Assembly (NCBI RefSeq): GCF_000786105.1
Contig: NZ_JTEV01000016.1
Location: forward strand, 1 to 64,000
Source of the DNA: Bdellovibrio sp. ArHS
GTDB lineage: Bacteria; Bdellovibrionota; Bdellovibrionia; Bdellovibrionales; Bdellovibrionaceae
Length of the DNA: 64,000 nucleotides
Direction: 5' to 3'
The first letter of the stretch is position 1; each line of letters opens with the position of its first letter. Both the position numbers and the translations under genes were made by a program. Shown one piece after another: positions 16,082 to 26,032 of the stretch. The notes under the pieces were generated by a model. The model saw only the letters and a program-made list of their open reading frames with translations. It searched no databases and had not been told where the DNA came from.

Positions 16082-17077
16082 ATGAATATGGGACGTTTTA
16101 ACCAAGTGGATCGCAAGCGGCAGTCGGGCTTTTCTCTTGTTGAAGTCCTTGTGACAGTGGGAATCTTAGTTCTGGTCAGCGTCGGTGTGGCCACTATGAT
16201 GTTGAATTTAAGCCGCGAAACTAAAAGTGTTTCGGCGAAGAGTGATTTCAATTCATTAGTAACGACTTTGCAGGGTGTATTAAATAACTCTAGTAGCTGT
16301 CTTGCGGCTTTTGGAGGAAAGGCCAGTCTTGATCTCACAACTCTTCCACAAGCTATTTCGGTGGATATCGGTGGGGCCAAGGTTCAGGTTGGGAAGTATG
16401 GAAACCTATTTAATATCACGCATTTTGAATTAACGGGAAAAACTCCAGCGGGCGGACTTAATCAATGGGTCGTACCTCTAAGTCTGGTGATTGATCGAGG
16501 GACGGGAAATACGACAGCGGTAGGTGGGAATACATTGGCTCATACCTTTAATCTTATTATGACGGTCGATGCGACAAACAAAGTCGTCGCGTGCGCTGGT
16601 CAGTACAGTGATTATTGGGTTCCCACAACTGCAAATAGAAACAACATCACTTATCCAGGCGGAAATGTAGGTATTGGTACAGACACTCCAACCTCACTTC
16701 TTGATGTGAATGGGATTGTGGTGGCCACGTCTTATATGTATAGATCAGATTTGCGACTTAAAGAGAACATTCGTGAAATTCCGGACCCTTTGGAACGTAC
16801 TTTAAAACTTCGTGGCGTCGTATTTGATTGGAAAAATCAGGACCACATGGATAAGGGAACTGACCAACTTGGATTTATTGCTCAGGAAGTGGAGCGCGTA
16901 TTTCCGGAAGCGGTTTCCACTCATCCGGCCACGGATATAAAATCTGTGGCTTACGGCAATTTGATCGCGCCTTTGATAGAGGCGATGAAGGATCAGCAGA
17001 AAATTATCGATCAACAGCAACGAGAAATTGCTGAGATCAAAAACGTACTTAAGAGTAAACAATCTCAGAGACGCTGA
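16082..17077 (+). CDS. Prepilin-like protein fused to a C-terminal S74 intramolecular chaperone
   Basis: 331 aa. The N-terminus has a type IV prepilin leader and helix, KRQSG|FSLVEVLVTVGILVL, with Gly at -1, Phe at +1 and Glu at +5. A pilin-like globular part with a Cys pair (SSCLAAFGG, VVACAGQ) follows. After GNVGIGTDTPTSLLDVNG, a repeat-type motif of phage tail fibres, comes the peptidase S74 chaperone (about 220-320): SDLRLKENI with the Ser222/Lys227 dyad, LGFIAQEVERVFPEAV, and a final coiled coil (QQKIIDQQQREIAEIK). Family knowledge: S74 domains trimerise fibres and then cleave themselves off. GGGAG precedes the ATG. Tandem with a paralogue 5 nt downstream. Confidence 0.85.
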   Translation: MNMGRFNQVDRKRQSGFSLVEVLVTVGILVLVSVGVATMMLNLSRETKSVSAKSDFNSLVTTLQGVLNNSSSCLAAFGGKASLDLTTLPQAISVDIGGAKVQVGKYGNLFNITHFELTGKTPAGGLNQWVVPLSLVIDRGTGNTTAVGGNTLAHTFNLIMTVDATNKVVACAGQYSDYWVPTTANRNNITYPGGNVGIGTDTPTSLLDVNGIVVATSYMYRSDLRLKENIREIPDPLERTLKLRGVVFDWKNQDHMDKGTDQLGFIAQEVERVFPEAVSTHPATDIKSVAYGNLIAPLIEAMKDQQKIIDQQQREIAEIKNVLKSKQSQRR

Positions 17078-17082
17078 TTTTT

Positions 17083-18051
17083 ATGAAAAAAATATTTGGA
17101 ACTCACAATCAGCGGGGATCTTCTCTTATACAAGTCCTCATTGTTACAGGAGTAGTGGCTATCGTCGGCGCGAGCCTTGGCACTATGATCGTAAACACGG
17201 TCAAAGAGTCGCGAAGTGTCGCGGCCAAGAGCGACTTCAACTCTTTGGTCAATACAATACAAGCGACGTTGAATAATACTAGCAACTGTTTGAAAGCTTT
17301 CGGGGGGGCCGGTGCCGTTCAATTAGGAGCTTATCCCCTGCCTCTTTCGTTGGATATCGGCGGGAAAAAAATCGAACCCGGTAAATATGGAAATGCTTTG
17401 AGCATCTCAAAGCTTGAGCTAACAGGGGCTTTGCCGGGAGAAGGAACAAGACAGTGGCTGGCCCGCATGAATCTGACAGTCAATCGCGGCAACAATGCAG
17501 GCATGGCGGTTGGCGGAGCTGAGTTATCCAAAGTCTTTGATGTTTTAATAACTGTGGATGAATCTAATAAGATCATCGGTTGTGCCTCACAAAATATAAA
17601 CTTCTGGGTGACGACGGATGTTATTTCAAATGTGGCTTACTTGGCCGGAAGTGTGGGCATTGGTTTGAAGACCTCGGAAAACGTCACAGCATCTTTGGAT
17701 GTAAAGGGTGAGTTTAAGAGTAATTTATTTAGAGAGAGATCAGATGCAAGACTTAAGCAAAATGTACGAGAGATTGCCAGTCCTCTTGAAAGAGTTTTGA
17801 AGCTTCACGGAGTTCGGTATAACTGGAAAAAAGATTTTTACAATAGAGATGCGGATCAACTGGGTTTGCTTGCTCAGGAAGTCGAAAAAGTATTTCCTGA
17901 AGCTGTGAGAACCGACCCTGTGACGGGAACGAAGACTGTGGCCTACGAGAACCTGTTGGCTCCCATGGTTGAAGCCATTAAAGAGCGACAAAAGATTATT
18001 CAGAGGCAACAGGATGAAATTGAAGAAATTAAGAGACAGCTTGTTGAATAG
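17083..18051 (+). CDS. Second prepilin-S74 fusion paralogue, with Glu5 replaced by Gln
   Basis: 322 aa, homologous to the preceding protein along its whole length (shared AKSDFNSLV, DIGG-K, KYGN, S74 tail). The prepilin segment is NQRG|SSLIQVLIVTGVVAIVG: Ser instead of Phe at +1 and Gln instead of Glu at +5. The Glu normally aids assembly and N-methylation, so this may be a minor or tip subunit. S74 dyad: Ser220/Lys225 in SDARLKQNV, then LGLLAQEVEKVFPEAV and a C-terminal coiled coil. No good ribosome site is seen, suggesting coupling to the upstream gene. Confidence 0.83.
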   Translation: MKKIFGTHNQRGSSLIQVLIVTGVVAIVGASLGTMIVNTVKESRSVAAKSDFNSLVNTIQATLNNTSNCLKAFGGAGAVQLGAYPLPLSLDIGGKKIEPGKYGNALSISKLELTGALPGEGTRQWLARMNLTVNRGNNAGMAVGGAELSKVFDVLITVDESNKIIGCASQNINFWVTTDVISNVAYLAGSVGIGLKTSENVTASLDVKGEFKSNLFRERSDARLKQNVREIASPLERVLKLHGVRYNWKKDFYNRDADQLGLLAQEVEKVFPEAVRTDPVTGTKTVAYENLLAPMVEAIKERQKIIQRQQDEIEEIKRQLVE

Positions 18052-18218
18052 CTTTTAAATCAAACTGTCTTAGATATATACAATCCGTAAATACTGTTTA
18101 GTTCGTATGTGAGTTTGATTATAATAAGGAAGAGGGATCTTTAGCTTCGATATTATAGTTCCATGAAGTTAAGTGGATTAAGTTCTTTAGATCCTAAGTG
18201 CGTTATGGGGGAATTAAG

Positions 18219-21200
18219 ATGACGAGCCATATTTTATTTCTAATGGTAGCTGCAACCCTTTCTCTCATACCCAATAGCGTTAGCGCGCAACAGTCGGCGA
18301 CTCCGCGAAATTATCCAAGCAGAGGTGCTGGAGCCACCAATTTTGATTGGCAGGATTCTTGGGGTACTCTTCATATGAACTCATTTGCCGATGGTCTGGT
18401 TGATCCCGGGGCTCCAACATCTATTAGGGGATTTGTGGATTGCCCTCAGGGAGAGTTTTGTACGTCGCGAATTAATACAAGCTTGGATCAAACGGGACGC
18501 GTCCCATTTAGAGATGTCATCAATAGTGTTTTGAGCCCCGCCGGCGTGAGGCTCGTAGCTAATGGTATTAAATTTGATATTAAGAATTCCGTTTTGAACT
18601 GTATGTCTAAAAAAGTTCCGAATTGGTCCTATAGGAACAACTCGGATTATACACGTACGAATGTCTGTATCGGAAAACTGAATAAAATGCCGGATGAAGA
18701 CGCTTATGCGAATCCCAGTTTAAGAACGATGATTCATCTTCCTCTATGGGACAGAAGAGCCAACGATGAACGCTCTTCAGACAATGGCCAACCTCATGGA
18801 TGTCAGCAGCAAGTCACCAATGGCTGTAATAATATCCGCGATATGCATGGTTGCATTGACGACTCAACAGGTGCATCGATGGTACCCGGGGAAAACCCTG
18901 GCTATATGTATCCGGTCACACATGTATATTCGACTGAGGAAGTGAATGACCTTGGTGGAAAAGGGGCGCAGATTCCCTCGACCTATTATCGCGTTCAGAG
19001 AATTACCGGAAAAGGTGAGCCGGTAAAAAACTCACCAACTCCGCCTTCCGGTGATTACATTGATCAAGGTACGCAACAGTCGGAATGTACTCGTTGGGCG
19101 AATCCTATTTTAACTGTCAAAGACAAATCATCCTGCGTGAACAGTCCAACAACTGAAGAAAGTTGTACTGCCAGAGCGGTTACGCCGGTTTCCAAATGTG
19201 AGTGCAGTGTTAAAGCTCTTATCACGGAATCCTGCAAGACTTATAACTATACTCCCATCACGTCTCATCGGCCTGGGCTTGCGACCTCTCTTGATGACGC
19301 GGTCCCAGGATATCCTGTGGTCACCGTACACGCGGCTCCGGATCCAAATCTTGCAAGGATTAAAAGTTATATTTTCACCAACACAGATCCCAAAGCCGAT
19401 TTATCAAACTTCATTATTATTGATCCCTCTAATTTCTTTGATTTGAGTTTGTATCGCCCTGGGGCTCCTTATGATTCCGGTTACAACAAAGTATCAGCGG
19501 GCGGTCTCGTTGAAACTTTTGATACGTGTCCTGTTATGGGCTTAACAGGAGGATATGGTGGTATTTGCGATCCTACCGGAAATGCAGGTTGTAATTTGCC
19601 GGTTTACTGGGTGGGACCGCAGACGGCCTTCTCAGATGCGAAGGGGAATTCTTTTAACTACAACGATTATCCTATTAAGTGGTCAGGCTACGTAAAAAGT
19701 TGGGCGGTTCTGACTGCCGATCAATATCTGGAAAATATCAAAGACAGAAGAACAGCAGGCGGAGCAAGCCTTTACCTAAAAGGAAAATACATCAACGAAA
19801 ACCCGGTTTTAATGATTCAGCGGGCGGACGACTACTGTGATATTCAAGAAAGAACATCCGTTCCCGTAACACAGTCCGGTACTGGTAGCAAACCGGACAT
19901 GCCATGCATCCAATATCTTCAATACCAGGCAAATGATCCTGCGGGAAAAGTTTATACTTTTGTGAATTTGTATAGTCCTGATGAAGATCCTCATGACGAA
20001 AATCATATCGAGTTTGATACGGCTCGATTGTACGACATTGGAGAGAATGGAAAACCGGATAAGTCGAAGCCCGTTCCTGGAACCGGCAGCGATGTTGATA
20101 TCGGTGGAGATGGGTCTCGTAACGGGTTTCTTTCTTTCAAAGATTCCCGCAATCCCATTGCTATTTATAATGACCGCTCAAAAAGTTTGGTTGGACTTCC
20201 TGCGATCATAAAAGCCAACTATGACGGGTCTAAAAAGCCGGTGTTTGATGCAAAAGGGAAACGTGTCTCCGGACCGGTATTGAGTACTGAAAATGCGCCC
20301 ACCGCAGGTGAGTATTTAGGTATCGATGCAGCCACGGGAAATGTGGACACCTCAAAAGGAACGGGAATTTTGATGGAGCCCGGAACCATGTCTTTTGTGA
20401 AGATGCCATACGATCTTATTATTAGTGGCGACTCGGCTCCTTGCGCGGTGATATCTTATCCGGTGACGGATGAACAAAAGGTCTTTATTCCAACGAACAC
20501 CGAGGCCGAGTTTCAGTCATTTGTCGCGGCCGCTGCCGATGGAAAAACCGGTGGAGTGAAAATCAGAAGATGTAGTGCCTCTTATCAGAAAAACGCCTTG
20601 GCTGCAAAAAGCGGAGAGGTGGCCGCTGCGGGTAATGCTGTTCAGGGCACTGAAACATGGACGGGGATGTTAAGCTGCGGTGACCTTACGAAAAGACCAG
20701 CCTGTAATCAGACTAAAATGATTACAGCCATGCGCTATTGCCAACTTGAAAATGGCACACTTAACTCGTGCGGCTCTTGCTCGGGTGCGACAGATCCTGA
20801 TGATAAAAGAGTGAACTTTACCAATGAGGCCGTTGACGGCGAGGTTTTAGTAAATCCGAGATTTGCCGCTTCAAAATGTTATTTCTCTGCGGCCTGCTTT
20901 AATAAAAAAGCGGCTGAGTGCCCATCGGAAAACTCCTCGGGTGGTCACGTCTTCTGCTTGTCCGCTGACACGAAAATTACCATGGCGGACGGAACACAAA
21001 AAGCGATTGCCAAAATCAAAGCCGGAGAAATGGTCATGGCCTTCGACGGTAAAAACACCCGTAATAGCATCTTGAAAAAGGCTAAAGTGATAGCCACGGC
21101 CGTGACGAAAAAACAGGAGATCATTAAAATCAATGATCTTCGCATCACTCCGAAGCACAAAATAGTCTTGGCGAGTGGTCGTGCGGTGATGGCGAGTGAT

Positions 21201-21380
21201 ATCCGTATTGGGGATAAAATCATGGGTGCTGACGGTCTCTTTATGACTGTTGAAAAAATCGATAGTCACCAAGCTCCTATCACAGTGTACAATCTGGTTT
21301 TGGATAGTAGCTCGGATGGCTACATAGCAAATAATGTACGTGTGCTTTCATATCCAAAATTGAAAGGCATGGAAAATTAG
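18219..21380 (+). CDS. Large secreted Cys-rich protein with C-terminal Hint (hedgehog/intein) domain
   Basis: 1053 aa from the ATG at 18219, which has GGGGG 7 nt upstream (a GTG at 18198 is less likely). Signal peptide MTSHILFLMVAATLSLIPNSVSA. Residues 25-900 match nothing I recognise but contain many Cys, so a disulfide-stabilised extracellular body is likely. Residues 913-1053 form a Hint domain: CLSADTKITMADGTQKAI with the splice/cleavage Cys913, the TxxH motif in RITPKHKIVL, and the closing strand YNLVLDSSSDGYIANNVRV. The usual terminal HN is absent, so N-terminal cleavage or cholesterol-ligation-like chemistry is more likely than full splicing. It lies downstream of the prepilin-S74 pair. 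Confidence 0.8.
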   Translation: MTSHILFLMVAATLSLIPNSVSAQQSATPRNYPSRGAGATNFDWQDSWGTLHMNSFADGLVDPGAPTSIRGFVDCPQGEFCTSRINTSLDQTGRVPFRDVINSVLSPAGVRLVANGIKFDIKNSVLNCMSKKVPNWSYRNNSDYTRTNVCIGKLNKMPDEDAYANPSLRTMIHLPLWDRRANDERSSDNGQPHGCQQQVTNGCNNIRDMHGCIDDSTGASMVPGENPGYMYPVTHVYSTEEVNDLGGKGAQIPSTYYRVQRITGKGEPVKNSPTPPSGDYIDQGTQQSECTRWANPILTVKDKSSCVNSPTTEESCTARAVTPVSKCECSVKALITESCKTYNYTPITSHRPGLATSLDDAVPGYPVVTVHAAPDPNLARIKSYIFTNTDPKADLSNFIIIDPSNFFDLSLYRPGAPYDSGYNKVSAGGLVETFDTCPVMGLTGGYGGICDPTGNAGCNLPVYWVGPQTAFSDAKGNSFNYNDYPIKWSGYVKSWAVLTADQYLENIKDRRTAGGASLYLKGKYINENPVLMIQRADDYCDIQERTSVPVTQSGTGSKPDMPCIQYLQYQANDPAGKVYTFVNLYSPDEDPHDENHIEFDTARLYDIGENGKPDKSKPVPGTGSDVDIGGDGSRNGFLSFKDSRNPIAIYNDRSKSLVGLPAIIKANYDGSKKPVFDAKGKRVSGPVLSTENAPTAGEYLGIDAATGNVDTSKGTGILMEPGTMSFVKMPYDLIISGDSAPCAVISYPVTDEQKVFIPTNTEAEFQSFVAAAADGKTGGVKIRRCSASYQKNALAAKSGEVAAAGNAVQGTETWTGMLSCGDLTKRPACNQTKMITAMRYCQLENGTLNSCGSCSGATDPDDKRVNFTNEAVDGEVLVNPRFAASKCYFSAACFNKKAAECPSENSSGGHVFCLSADTKITMADGTQKAIAKIKAGEMVMAFDGKNTRNSILKKAKVIATAVTKKQEIIKINDLRITPKHKIVLASGRAVMASDIRIGDKIMGADGLFMTVEKIDSHQAPITVYNLVLDSSSDGYIANNVRVLSYPKLKGMEN

Positions 21381-22478: not shown

Positions 22479-22838
22479 ATGAGCGAAGCAAACTTGCTGA
22501 CAACGCTGAGTTGTTTAGTAACCTATAGTCAGCGGATCATCAACTCAAGCCATAGCTTCGCTTTAAATAATAAAAAACAAATTTTTTTTCTTTATATCTT
22601 GGTTACCTTGGGTCTTTCTGCGTGTTCTCTGGAGGCGCAAATTACCAATGTGCGTTTGCTCAATCCAGAATTTGAAATTCAAGAACGCAAAGAGCCTGAT
22701 TTCATTTACGGTGAGGTCGTAACCACCTATGGTGGCAAGCCCGGCTATGAAGTCAAAGCCGTCTTCGGCGAAATCTCAGAAAAAACAAAAAGTTTAAATG
22801 GCAATCAATGGCAGCTTGAAGGAGTCTTTTATGAGTAA
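22479..22838 (+). CDS. Small lipoprotein preceding the variable adhesin gene
   Basis: 119 aa. After an unusually long N-terminal region of about 33 residues comes a hydrophobic stretch and lipobox (QIFFLYILVTLGLSAC|S, Cys about 49). The mature part (EAQITNVRLLNPEFEIQ... VVTTYGGKPGYEVKAVFGEISEK) looks like one beta-rich domain. GGAG sits 8 nt before the ATG. The stop overlaps the next start by 8 nt, so the two proteins are made together; the lipoprotein may anchor or assist the downstream fibre. Confidence 0.65.
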   Translation: MSEANLLTTLSCLVTYSQRIINSSHSFALNNKKQIFFLYILVTLGLSACSLEAQITNVRLLNPEFEIQERKEPDFIYGEVVTTYGGKPGYEVKAVFGEISEKTKSLNGNQWQLEGVFYE

Positions 22839-25836
22839 GGCATTCATGTGCATACTTGCGTTACTCATGTTTTCATTGCCGGGCTTTGTAAGGGCTCAAC
22901 ATAAAGGTATTAACTTTCAGGCGGTGATTAAAAAGCCTGATGGGACTTACCCCAGCGCCATCGGTTTGACGGTGACTTTGCAGATTTTAGACCCTGTGAC
23001 GAAATGTGTTCTCAGGGAAGAAGAGCATTCCAGCAAAAATGTCTCTAACGGATATTTGAATTTGGTCATCGGGGACGCGAGTGCCACCACTCCCTTGGGG
23101 AAAAATCCCTCACCGGTTTTGTCGATTCCTGAAGTGATGGATAATAGGAAACAAAGAACAGGGCTCAAATGCGTTGATATTCATAATAATGTCGTCGCTA
23201 GTAACCAGACATATATTCCTTCCAACGTCGATCGCCGGGTATTACGGGTTCGTTTGAATATTCAAGGTGATGATGTTGTCGCGGATTTCAATATGCGTGC
23301 GGTGGCCTTTGCCGTGAATTCTGAAATGTTGAACAGTAAGACCGATACGGACTTTGTGAATGTCAACAATGCCAAAGGTGTAACTCAAGATAATGTCGAA
23401 AGTATCTTTGAAAGATATACGAACTTAGATGCGATATTGAACAACTACACCAAACTGAATTCGTTGTTGGGAAATACCAATGGTGCGGGGAATAACCTGG
23501 GTGTCAACATCACCGGGAACGCCGCCACAGCGACCACAGCCAACAGTATTGCTGGTGGCGTGAATTCTTTATTGCCGACTCAAACTGGAAATGGTGGGAA
23601 ATATCTGAAAACTGATGGCACGAATGTCAGTTGGGAAACAGCAGCTGGCGGTGGTGGACTGACTCAAGTAGGAATCAATTTGCCTGCAAGTGTATTTACA
23701 AATGGTGCTGACATCACGGCCAACGGTAAAGTCAGTGCAACTTTTACCAATCAAAATGCGAACGTCGTCTTTGCAGGGCCATCCAGTGGTGGAGCTGCTG
23801 TGCCGGGTTTTAGGGCTTTAACCGCAAGCGATATTCCTAGCTTGGGTTGGAATCAAATGACCGGGGTCCTTTCCAGTGAACAAATCGCCAGTCACACACC
23901 GAGCTTTATTGCGAACGGTTTAGTGATGACAGGTGCGACCGGTGTTGCAGAACCCTTGGTGCTTTCTCCTTGTGTGGGTGTGGTGAAATCAACCCTTGCG
24001 ACGTATTCCTGCGCACCACTTGCCTCAACGGATTTAGCGACGGATATTATTAAAACAGGTCATATTGAAAATGGCGCGGTGACAGACGCAAAGATCTCAG
24101 GAACGATCAGCAGCGGCAAGTTACCGGTGGCAAGTGGCACGACGGATGGAATTATTAATCAAGTTGCGCAGTCAATAAAAGGCGTGAAGACCTTTATTGA
24201 TAATGCCATTTTCAATACAATCACGGCATCAGGAAATATCACGACCAGCGCGGATTTAGCCTCAACAAATATGACTGCTTCAGGTGTGGTTAGTGCCGAC
24301 CGAATCAAAGTAGCAAACTCCAGCGCCGCTTGTAACGGAACAACGGAAGGGTCGTTGCGCTACAACTCTACCAAAAAGAAAATGGAATATTGTAACGGCA
24401 CGGACTGGACTCAAATATCTCAAGGTGTGATAGCTTCTTTGATTCTTGGTGCGCCGAGCAGTGCCATTGTTAAATCCGGCCCTGTCACTTTTGATGTGAC
24501 TTACGGTTCAGGGGTGGATACCGGCACAATTAACTTAACTCCCGCCCATGTGACCATTGCCGGAACAGCCACCGCAGGATGCTCGGTGACGGGAGTTGCT
24601 GGTGGCGGAACAACCCGCACAGTGACGGTGAATGGTTGTACGGGAACAGGTTCTGTTTATATCACGATTGCACCAGGAACTGCGAACTCTACAACCGGGG
24701 ATGCTGCACCCGCAGCAGGCCCATCTGCAAGTTACTTGGTTGATAACACAGGTCCCAATGCGCCAACATCGTTGGTACTCGGTTCTGTACCGAATAATTT
24801 CACAAACTCTCCAACGATCACTTACACCGCAGCGACAGATGTGGGTGGAAGTGCTATCGCTAAACACCAAGTGCAAATCAAGAAAACTTCAGATAGCAGC
24901 ATCGTCAAGGCTTGGGCTGATCATGTCAGCGGGGCAGATATCAGTGGACTCAGTTTGACATTTAATACGAACTACACAGTGGAAGTTCGTGCCGAGGACG
25001 CCCTTGGCAATATCGGTGACATTGCCTCAGCCGCTTGGACAACGATTGATGATCCATGTCCAACGAACTATATTTTAGTTCCAGCTTTAGCGGGATACAC
25101 GACGCAAGACTTCTGCGTGGCTCAGTATGAAATGAAAAGTAATTCTGGTGCCAAATCAGAACCTGCAGGAAATCCTTGGGTCAGCATCAATAGGGATGAC
25201 TCAAGAACACAATGTACCAATTTAGGTGGTAAGTACGATTTGATTTCAAATAACCAATGGCAAACGATCGCCAGAAACATCGAGCAAGTTCCGTCCAATT
25301 GGTCAGGTGGTGCCGTCGGAAACGGAAAGCTTGCTAGAGGCTGGGCAGCTAACAGTGGAGCTTATCCTGACAGTGCTGGTGCCTACGATGGCTGGACAAA
25401 TAGTGCCGTAGCTTCAAGCACGGGTCCTGCATGTCTTTACAACACGGGTGCGAATGCTTGTAGTTCAACGGGAACGCATCTTTATCGAAGAACTCACACC
25501 CTTACAAATGGAAAAGAGATCTGGGATTTCTCAGGAAATGTCTGGGAGTGGACTCGCGACAATTACGCGGACCTCGGTGTGAATCCGGCAATCAGCGCAG
25601 CTTGGCAGGAGATCTTCGGATTGTCAGTAACGAATAAAGGCCTATTTGGTCCGGCAGATGGAAACTTGAAGTCTAATCAGGGTATTGGACAAGCCTATGG
25701 TACGTCCAACGGGGCCGTCCTTCGTGGTGGTAACTGGAGCAACGGCGCGTACGTGGGCGTATTTGCAGTCAATCTGTTCTTTGCGCCGTCGATCCCGAAC
25801 ACGGACATCGGGTTTCGGTGCGTGTTCGTCCCGTAA
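22831..25836 (+). CDS. Large secreted fibre-like protein with C-terminal FGE/C-type-lectin-like variable domain
   Basis: 1001 aa from the ATG at 22831 (GGAG 6 nt upstream). Signal peptide KAFMCILALLMFSLPGFVRA. The N-terminal domain (GINFQAVIKKPDGTYPSA... GYLNLVIGDAS) resembles that of the S74 fibre at 39-41.7 kb (SLNYQGRIIKTDGTPLL). The middle is a low-complexity Gly/Thr/Ser fibre with an Ig-like stretch near 650-735. Residues 743-1001 form a formylglycine-generating-enzyme-like/C-type-lectin fold: CPTNYILVP, DFCVAQYEM, WDFSGNVWEWTRD, VLRGGNWSNGAY, and IGFRC at the end. That last segment has the layout of diversity-generating-retroelement variable regions. Likely a prey- or surface-binding adhesin. 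Confidence 0.78.
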   Translation: MSKAFMCILALLMFSLPGFVRAQHKGINFQAVIKKPDGTYPSAIGLTVTLQILDPVTKCVLREEEHSSKNVSNGYLNLVIGDASATTPLGKNPSPVLSIPEVMDNRKQRTGLKCVDIHNNVVASNQTYIPSNVDRRVLRVRLNIQGDDVVADFNMRAVAFAVNSEMLNSKTDTDFVNVNNAKGVTQDNVESIFERYTNLDAILNNYTKLNSLLGNTNGAGNNLGVNITGNAATATTANSIAGGVNSLLPTQTGNGGKYLKTDGTNVSWETAAGGGGLTQVGINLPASVFTNGADITANGKVSATFTNQNANVVFAGPSSGGAAVPGFRALTASDIPSLGWNQMTGVLSSEQIASHTPSFIANGLVMTGATGVAEPLVLSPCVGVVKSTLATYSCAPLASTDLATDIIKTGHIENGAVTDAKISGTISSGKLPVASGTTDGIINQVAQSIKGVKTFIDNAIFNTITASGNITTSADLASTNMTASGVVSADRIKVANSSAACNGTTEGSLRYNSTKKKMEYCNGTDWTQISQGVIASLILGAPSSAIVKSGPVTFDVTYGSGVDTGTINLTPAHVTIAGTATAGCSVTGVAGGGTTRTVTVNGCTGTGSVYITIAPGTANSTTGDAAPAAGPSASYLVDNTGPNAPTSLVLGSVPNNFTNSPTITYTAATDVGGSAIAKHQVQIKKTSDSSIVKAWADHVSGADISGLSLTFNTNYTVEVRAEDALGNIGDIASAAWTTIDDPCPTNYILVPALAGYTTQDFCVAQYEMKSNSGAKSEPAGNPWVSINRDDSRTQCTNLGGKYDLISNNQWQTIARNIEQVPSNWSGGAVGNGKLARGWAANSGAYPDSAGAYDGWTNSAVASSTGPACLYNTGANACSSTGTHLYRRTHTLTNGKEIWDFSGNVWEWTRDNYADLGVNPAISAAWQEIFGLSVTNKGLFGPADGNLKSNQGIGQAYGTSNGAVLRGGNWSNGAYVGVFAVNLFFAPSIPNTDIGFRCVFVP
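25690..25836 (+). other. Candidate DGR variable region (VR) at the 3' end of the adhesin gene
   Basis: The last ~145 nt differ in composition from the rest of the gene, being richer in G+C. They encode AVLRGGNWSNGAYVGVFAVNLFFAPSIPNTDIGFRC, the layout of lectin-fold DGR targets. Exposed positions use codons of the form NNC (AGC 25738, TAC 25750, TTC 25777, ATC 25792, GAC 25804), as expected if template AAC codons had been changed at adenines. No reverse transcriptase or template repeat is visible in the window. Confidence 0.45.
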
Positions 25837-25838
25837 TT

Positions 25839-25859
25839 CTGCGGGGCGAAGCCCTGCAG
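25839..25859. repeat. GC-rich hairpin 3 nt after the adhesin stop codon
   Basis: CTGCGGGGC and GCCCTGCAG pair over 9 positions (one G-T wobble) around GAA. DGR targets characteristically carry a GC-rich hairpin a few nt downstream of VR. No T run follows, so a terminator is less likely. The remaining gap to 26032 holds only a 22-codon ORF at 25927 with no recognisable content. Confidence 0.5.
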
Positions 25860-26032
25860 TGGATCTGAGCCTGGCGACCAGCAAGGCAAATCAACTGTAC
25901 GGAGCGAGCAAGTATTAACTTTATTAAATGAAGCGTCTTGAAGATCTGAAAGTGGGGGGCCGGTTTATTGATTATGCAAGTTTCGTTCATTTGTGAAAAG
26001 ATATGACTATGCTTTGGTAGCTGCCGCCTAAA

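Follow-up and report, generated by a model that had tools for sequence, protein, structure and literature searches.

A mosaic adhesive trimer fibre gene with a probable frozen DGR target at its tip in a Bdellovibrio-type bacterium

The gene at positions 22831–25836 of the 64,000-nucleotide stretch of DNA analyzed here (hereafter, the window) probably encodes a MAT-family surface fibre whose tip is a frozen DGR target, the associated cassette having since been lost and one variant fixed. From the sequence comparisons described below, we assign this reading a probability of about 0.7. Diversity-generating retroelements (DGRs) rewrite the tips of phage tail fibres and bacterial proteins of the C-type-lectin fold, and Bdellovibrio is proposed to recognize its prey with MAT fibres. 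In the history that we propose, an error-prone reverse transcriptase (RT) would once have copied a template RNA and randomized its adenines. The mutagenized cDNA would then have replaced the 3′ end of the fibre gene, guided by the hairpin that follows the stop codon. The HTH-Avd-RT-TR cassette (TR, template repeat), which lies directly 3′ of the target in relatives, would later have been lost at this locus, leaving a single fixed binding-site variant on an otherwise ordinary fibre.

The reading frame, on the forward strand like its domains, the VR and the hairpin described below, opens with an ATG at 22831, has AGGAG just 5′ of the start and ends with a stop codon at 25834–25836, which bears out the 1001-residue product described in an earlier note on this DNA. 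A probable signal peptide covers about residues 1–22 (22831–22896), judging from the sequence MSKAFMCILALLMFSLPGFVRA itself. The conserved beta-rich domain that follows the signal peptide matches the NCBIfam profile NF053851 (Bdello_MAT_N) over residues 13–179 (22867–23367), with 103.4 bits against a curated cut-off of 60, and related domains are encoded at seven other places in the same genome. On the basis of the MAT model and of its kinship in the database, the organism appears to be of the Bdellovibrio type. The window protein resembles the mosaic adhesive trimer (MAT) fibres described from Bdellovibrio (Caulton et al. 2024, PMC10769870) in its N-terminal domain, its length of about 1000 residues and its variable C-terminal tip. 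It differs from them in that the tip is of the FGE type and carries a DGR variable repeat (VR) with a hairpin behind it.

The tip domain comprises residues 740–1001 (25048–25833). The Pfam model FGE-sulfatase (PF03781) matches residues 882–998 with 35.3 bits (cut-off 23.3), in agreement with the FGE/C-type-lectin-like C-terminal domain that had been claimed earlier. The best PDB profile match of the tip family is 5VF4 (E = 1.1e-5), the structure of TaqVP; this DGR variable protein has an FGE-type C-type-lectin fold and lacks the catalytic Ser-Cys-Cys residues of human FGE (PMC6328139). As in TaqVP, TvpA and Mtd, a VR of ~40 residues occupies the extreme C-terminus of the domain (PMC6328139), a placement given by the PF03781 and TaqVP profile matches and by alignment with active VRs. 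Unlike in those systems, searches of the genome of the window yielded neither RT nor TR. A structure prediction of the tip from a seven-sequence alignment reached a mean pLDDT of 36.5, and the model was set aside.

A DGR template repeat is the most likely source of the last ~115 nt of the gene (about 25711–25826), as indicated by their composition and by DNA matches. Between 25690 and 25835 the GC content is 0.59 and the A content 0.158, compared with 0.48 and 0.28 in the remainder of the gene; GC3 is 0.74 in the last 38 codons and 0.45 before them. Among the ends of the 60 ORFs of at least 150 aa in the window, this one has the highest GC3 and the lowest A content. The shift in composition over the last ~145 nt, which the earlier note had pointed out, is real. 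When 25700–25870 was searched against 141 genomes of the order at the DNA level, it matched the TR of a genome of the same order, G075, with 71% identity over 116 nt (E = 4.6e-9); this TR belongs to an intact Avd-RT-TR element. In G047, the same segment matches the end of a gene for an FGE-tipped protein, where the VR of that genome lies (E = 2.3e-7). The only other matches among the 141–144 genomes of the order and class were two weak partial ones in G058. Phage and plasmid records, searched by BLAST with the VR, gave chance matches only, and a specific degenerate VR/TR pattern found nothing in viral and GTDB contigs.

The ancestry of the tip appears to change at the VR. The tip domain 5′ of it is nearest to paralogues from the same genus (DNA identity 0.56). 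The VR itself is nearest to the VRs of DGRs, with a DNA identity of 0.64–0.67 versus 0.42–0.58 for non-DGR homologues, and it matches the G075 TR better than any non-DGR paralogue. Alternatively, a DGR-bearing relative could have donated the 3′ end of the gene through recombination (tip swapping), with no DGR ever active in this lineage. Such an exchange fits the abrupt change in composition and the mixed origin of the final ~145 nt, hairpin included, and MATs have been described as possibly exchanging tips (PMC10769870). However, retrohoming of a template with another composition yields an identical mosaic, and the remainder of the tip domain is not nearest to DGR-bearing genomes. We therefore regard tip swapping as unlikely and favor a former DGR target.

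The hairpin, which like the MAT identity of the N-terminus goes beyond the earlier note, lies at 25839–25859, beginning 2 nt 3′ of the stop codon, and has the form CTGCGGGGC-GAA-GCCCTGCAG. Its GC-rich 9-bp stem consists of eight Watson–Crick pairs and one G·T pair, the loop is GAA, and no T run is present. The folding energy of 25815–25865 is −11.9 kcal/mol (z = −3.6), and none of 200 shuffled sequences was equally stable. Retrohoming in BPP-1 requires an inverted repeat after the VR, in which the structure matters and not the stem sequence, and GC-rich stems of 7–10 bp after the VR are common to phage DGRs (Guo et al. 2011, PMC3240598). The window resembles the BPP-1 target site in having a GC-rich inverted repeat shortly 3′ of the VR, although its loop has 3 nt (GAA) instead of the 4-nt GRNA (PMC3240598); the corresponding loops are GAA in G026, a genome of the same family, and GTA in the IMG/VR contig L118, whose DGR target is followed by CTGGGGGC-GTA-GCCCCCAG.

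When the ~60 nt that follow the stop codon were scanned for GC-rich stems with loops of 3–4 nt, such hairpins were detected after the VRs of the window, G026 (loop GAA), G037 (GAAT) and G047 (AAA), and in none of 26 non-DGR FGE homologues. The hairpins of the window and G047 both begin 2–3 nt past the stop in a common TAATTC context but have different stem bases. Some comparable hairpin occurs within 60 nt of the stop in 5 of the 60 window ORFs; therefore, the hairpin alone was dropped as proof of a DGR target.

The codons of the VR provide a further line of evidence. Eleven codons (starting at 25732, 25738, 25741, 25747, 25750, 25771, 25777, 25780, 25792, 25798 and 25804; span 25732–25806) align with the template-adenine codons of an active homologous DGR. 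The NNC codons to which the earlier note had drawn attention, AGC at 25738, TAC at 25750, TTC at 25777, ATC at 25792 and GAC at 25804, are all present, and in homologous targets the corresponding codons are rewritten by a true DGR. Such a DGR is found on L118, which encodes a 1080-residue FGE-tipped fibre with a window-type VR and a complete HTH-Avd-RT-TR cassette. Across 5262 nt, L118 and a second contig, L121, show 12 differences, all of which fall in the VR at TR adenines, in codons that align with these NNC codons. This pair provides direct evidence that a DGR works on tips of the window type. BLASTP detected no homology between the window MAT domain and the N-terminus of the L118 fibre. 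The IMG/VR contigs L118, L121, L119 and L144, candidate viral or bacterial sequences, all encode FGE-tipped fibres, and their VRs differ among contigs.

Adenine targeting of the window VR was tested against TRs from other genera. With the G075 TR as reference, changes at codon positions 1 and 2 fall on 11 of 25 template adenines and on 4 of 45 other sites (p = 0.001), and none of them is toward A. The same test gave p = 0.01 with the G047 TR and 0.07 with the L118 TR; it was not significant with the TRs of G026 and G037. TR-to-TR control comparisons showed no adenine bias. Three non-DGR homologues are also biased toward differences from TRs at A positions (p = 0.04, 0.04 and 0.006), at the same columns, and the test is therefore taken as supportive and was dropped as sole proof. 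Likewise, little weight can be placed on the codon pattern by itself: most of the differences between non-DGR homologues and DGR templates also fall at these exposed positions.

This overlap is what speaks for ordinary FGE evolution, in which the exposed loops would have diverged under selection with no DGR involved and the hairpin would be due to chance or related to transcription. Relatives of the FGE tip are common, occurring in 22 of 24 genomes of the genus, and those without a DGR vary at the same exposed positions. Such divergence leaves unexplained the DNA-level match to TRs, the jump in composition restricted to the VR and a GNA-loop hairpin that lacks a T run and is placed as in DGR targets. 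We consider it very improbable and retain the derivation of the VR from a DGR template.

The assembly comprises 47 contigs and is 95.9% complete; the VR lies on a contig of 236 kb (C16), far from its ends. No RT was found in this assembly with the RVT_1 profile, which scores two DGR RTs of the related group at 72 and 84 bits, or in a protein search with a DGR RT. No TR was found in it with an adenine-replacement pattern allowing 3 mismatches, or by BLAST with the window VR or with the TRs of G047 and L118. The window contains no detectable remnant of an RT, Avd or TR. Only about 170 nt (25860–26032, unstranded) separate the hairpin from the next gene, an LD-carboxypeptidase, and this gap, where relatives carry HTH-Avd-RT-TR, shows no trace of the cassette. 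The 38 kb 3′ of the VR are fully sequenced and also lack it.

The window target is therefore an orphan, because neither RT nor TR was found in the genome. The absence of a nearby RT had been stated in the earlier note, and it extends to the whole assembly; a near-identical repeat bearing A at the variable positions next to an RT gene, which the note had proposed to look for, was not found, and neither was the RT. The DGR origin and the orphan status of a relic or trans-served target gain support from the G075 TR, the MAT-DGR of G026 and the post-stop hairpin. Present-day variation in the organism of the window, in contrast, receives none, since the assembly yielded no RT or TR. The note would have given up the idea if the genome held neither RT nor TR and the listed codons did not vary among strains; the first of these two situations is the one encountered in the assembly. 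The former presence of a cassette at this locus, and its loss as opposed to its non-assembly, appear probable to us, but the loss of RT and TR falls short of proof because the assembly is 96% complete.

The same incompleteness leaves room for a target that is still diversified in trans, by an RT and a TR that lie on a mobile element or in DNA missing from the assembly. The VR, the stop codon and the hairpin appear intact. In addition, the RT next to the nearest TR, that of G075 (L090, G075:C8), lies a few kb from integrase-like and relaxase-like genes near a contig end, as seen by eye, and the G075 genome has no detectable VR of its own; this DGR is perhaps mobile. Conversely, the RT and TR searches described above were negative, and the cassette that lies directly behind the target in relatives is missing from the complete 38 kb downstream. 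Service in trans is possible but less likely than a frozen target. It is also doubtful, in our judgment, that DGRs, some of them mobile, reprogram MAT tips in Bdellovibrio-type predators and still rewrite the orphan VR in trans whenever the element is present, as a form of adaptive prey recognition.

An intact counterpart of the presumed frozen target is found in G026 (L092 8015–10978, reverse strand, G026:C3, and downstream). Its fibre has 987 residues, a MAT profile score of 111 bits and an FGE-like tip with a VR, and its N-terminal ~360 residues share 38% identity with the window protein. The locus runs MAT fibre with VR, hairpin, HTH-type gene, Avd, RT and TR, and all 13 differences between its TR and VR are at template adenines. 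The window shares with it the MAT fibre, the FGE-like tip, the VR, the stop and the hairpin, whereas the HTH, Avd, RT and TR that follow in G026 are missing, and the VRs belong to different sequence subtypes. The G026 case is stronger than that of the window and merits its own study.

Several DGR-like RTs with adjoining AAY-rich repeats were obtained when the order was searched with the G075 RT. In G037, all 10 TR/VR differences are at adenines. In G047, a TR lies about 0.7 kb past the VR (L091 / L045 1490–2434, G047:C39), and the two differ at 15 adenines and 5 other sites (p = 7e-7). No RT was found in this 90% complete genome, and no RT, Avd or HTH gene was seen between VR and TR; G047 is thus a decaying DGR, an intermediate stage of loss. 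The series formed by G026 (intact), G047 (TR without RT) and the window (VR and hairpin only) offers a way to spot DGR relics that are missed by RT-based surveys.

Two further RTs were rejected as DGRs: that of G021 (C1:2527518; L008 1264–3140) adjoins a retron-partner-like gene and looks like part of a retron by eye, and that of G005 has no TR or FGE target visible nearby. G098 contains an AAC-rich, TR-like repeat (L133 1504–1620, G098:C103) that is in frame to a stop and adjoins a truncated FGE-like frame; no DGR RT match was obtained in that genome. VR-like FGE tails at L141 about 1481–1640 (G056), LRGGYWSADTYAGVFTLFLNNGSGDSFTNVGFRCVYRP, and at L127 about 1473 (G097), GGLWSRNTSSGVFAANLDVAPSFSHDSIGFRCVFHP, may be DGR targets.

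In the known MAT Bd2740, the tip is a C-type lectin, and its trimer arrangement is matched by the DGR protein Mtd alone; within the MAT paper, DGRs appear only in the title of one reference, which deals with Mtd (PMC10769870). In the open-access literature searched, no report of MAT fibres as DGR targets came up, and the finding is provisionally new. The two fields are connected by MAT fibres that bear DGR-type tips, with the element intact in G026 and the target orphaned in the window. These cases suggest that some bacterial predators can reshuffle proteins probably used to grip prey. By analogy with MAT biology (PMC10769870), the tip of the window fibre would bind prey, and variation of its VR might widen the prey range, as the earlier note had suggested. 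A concrete hypothesis thereby becomes testable, namely that bacterial predators use targeted mutagenesis to vary how they bind prey and that loss of the RT may afterwards fix one variant.

Upstream of the fibre gene, the window contains further genes with recognizable domains. Two adjacent genes (16082–17077 and 17083–18051) encode pilin-like proteins that both end in a Peptidase_S74 chaperone domain, an unusual domain pair, and the product of the first also carries a prokaryotic N-methylation motif. The gene at 18198–21380 encodes a 1060-residue protein with a Hint/intein-like domain at its C-terminus (PF05203, PF07591).
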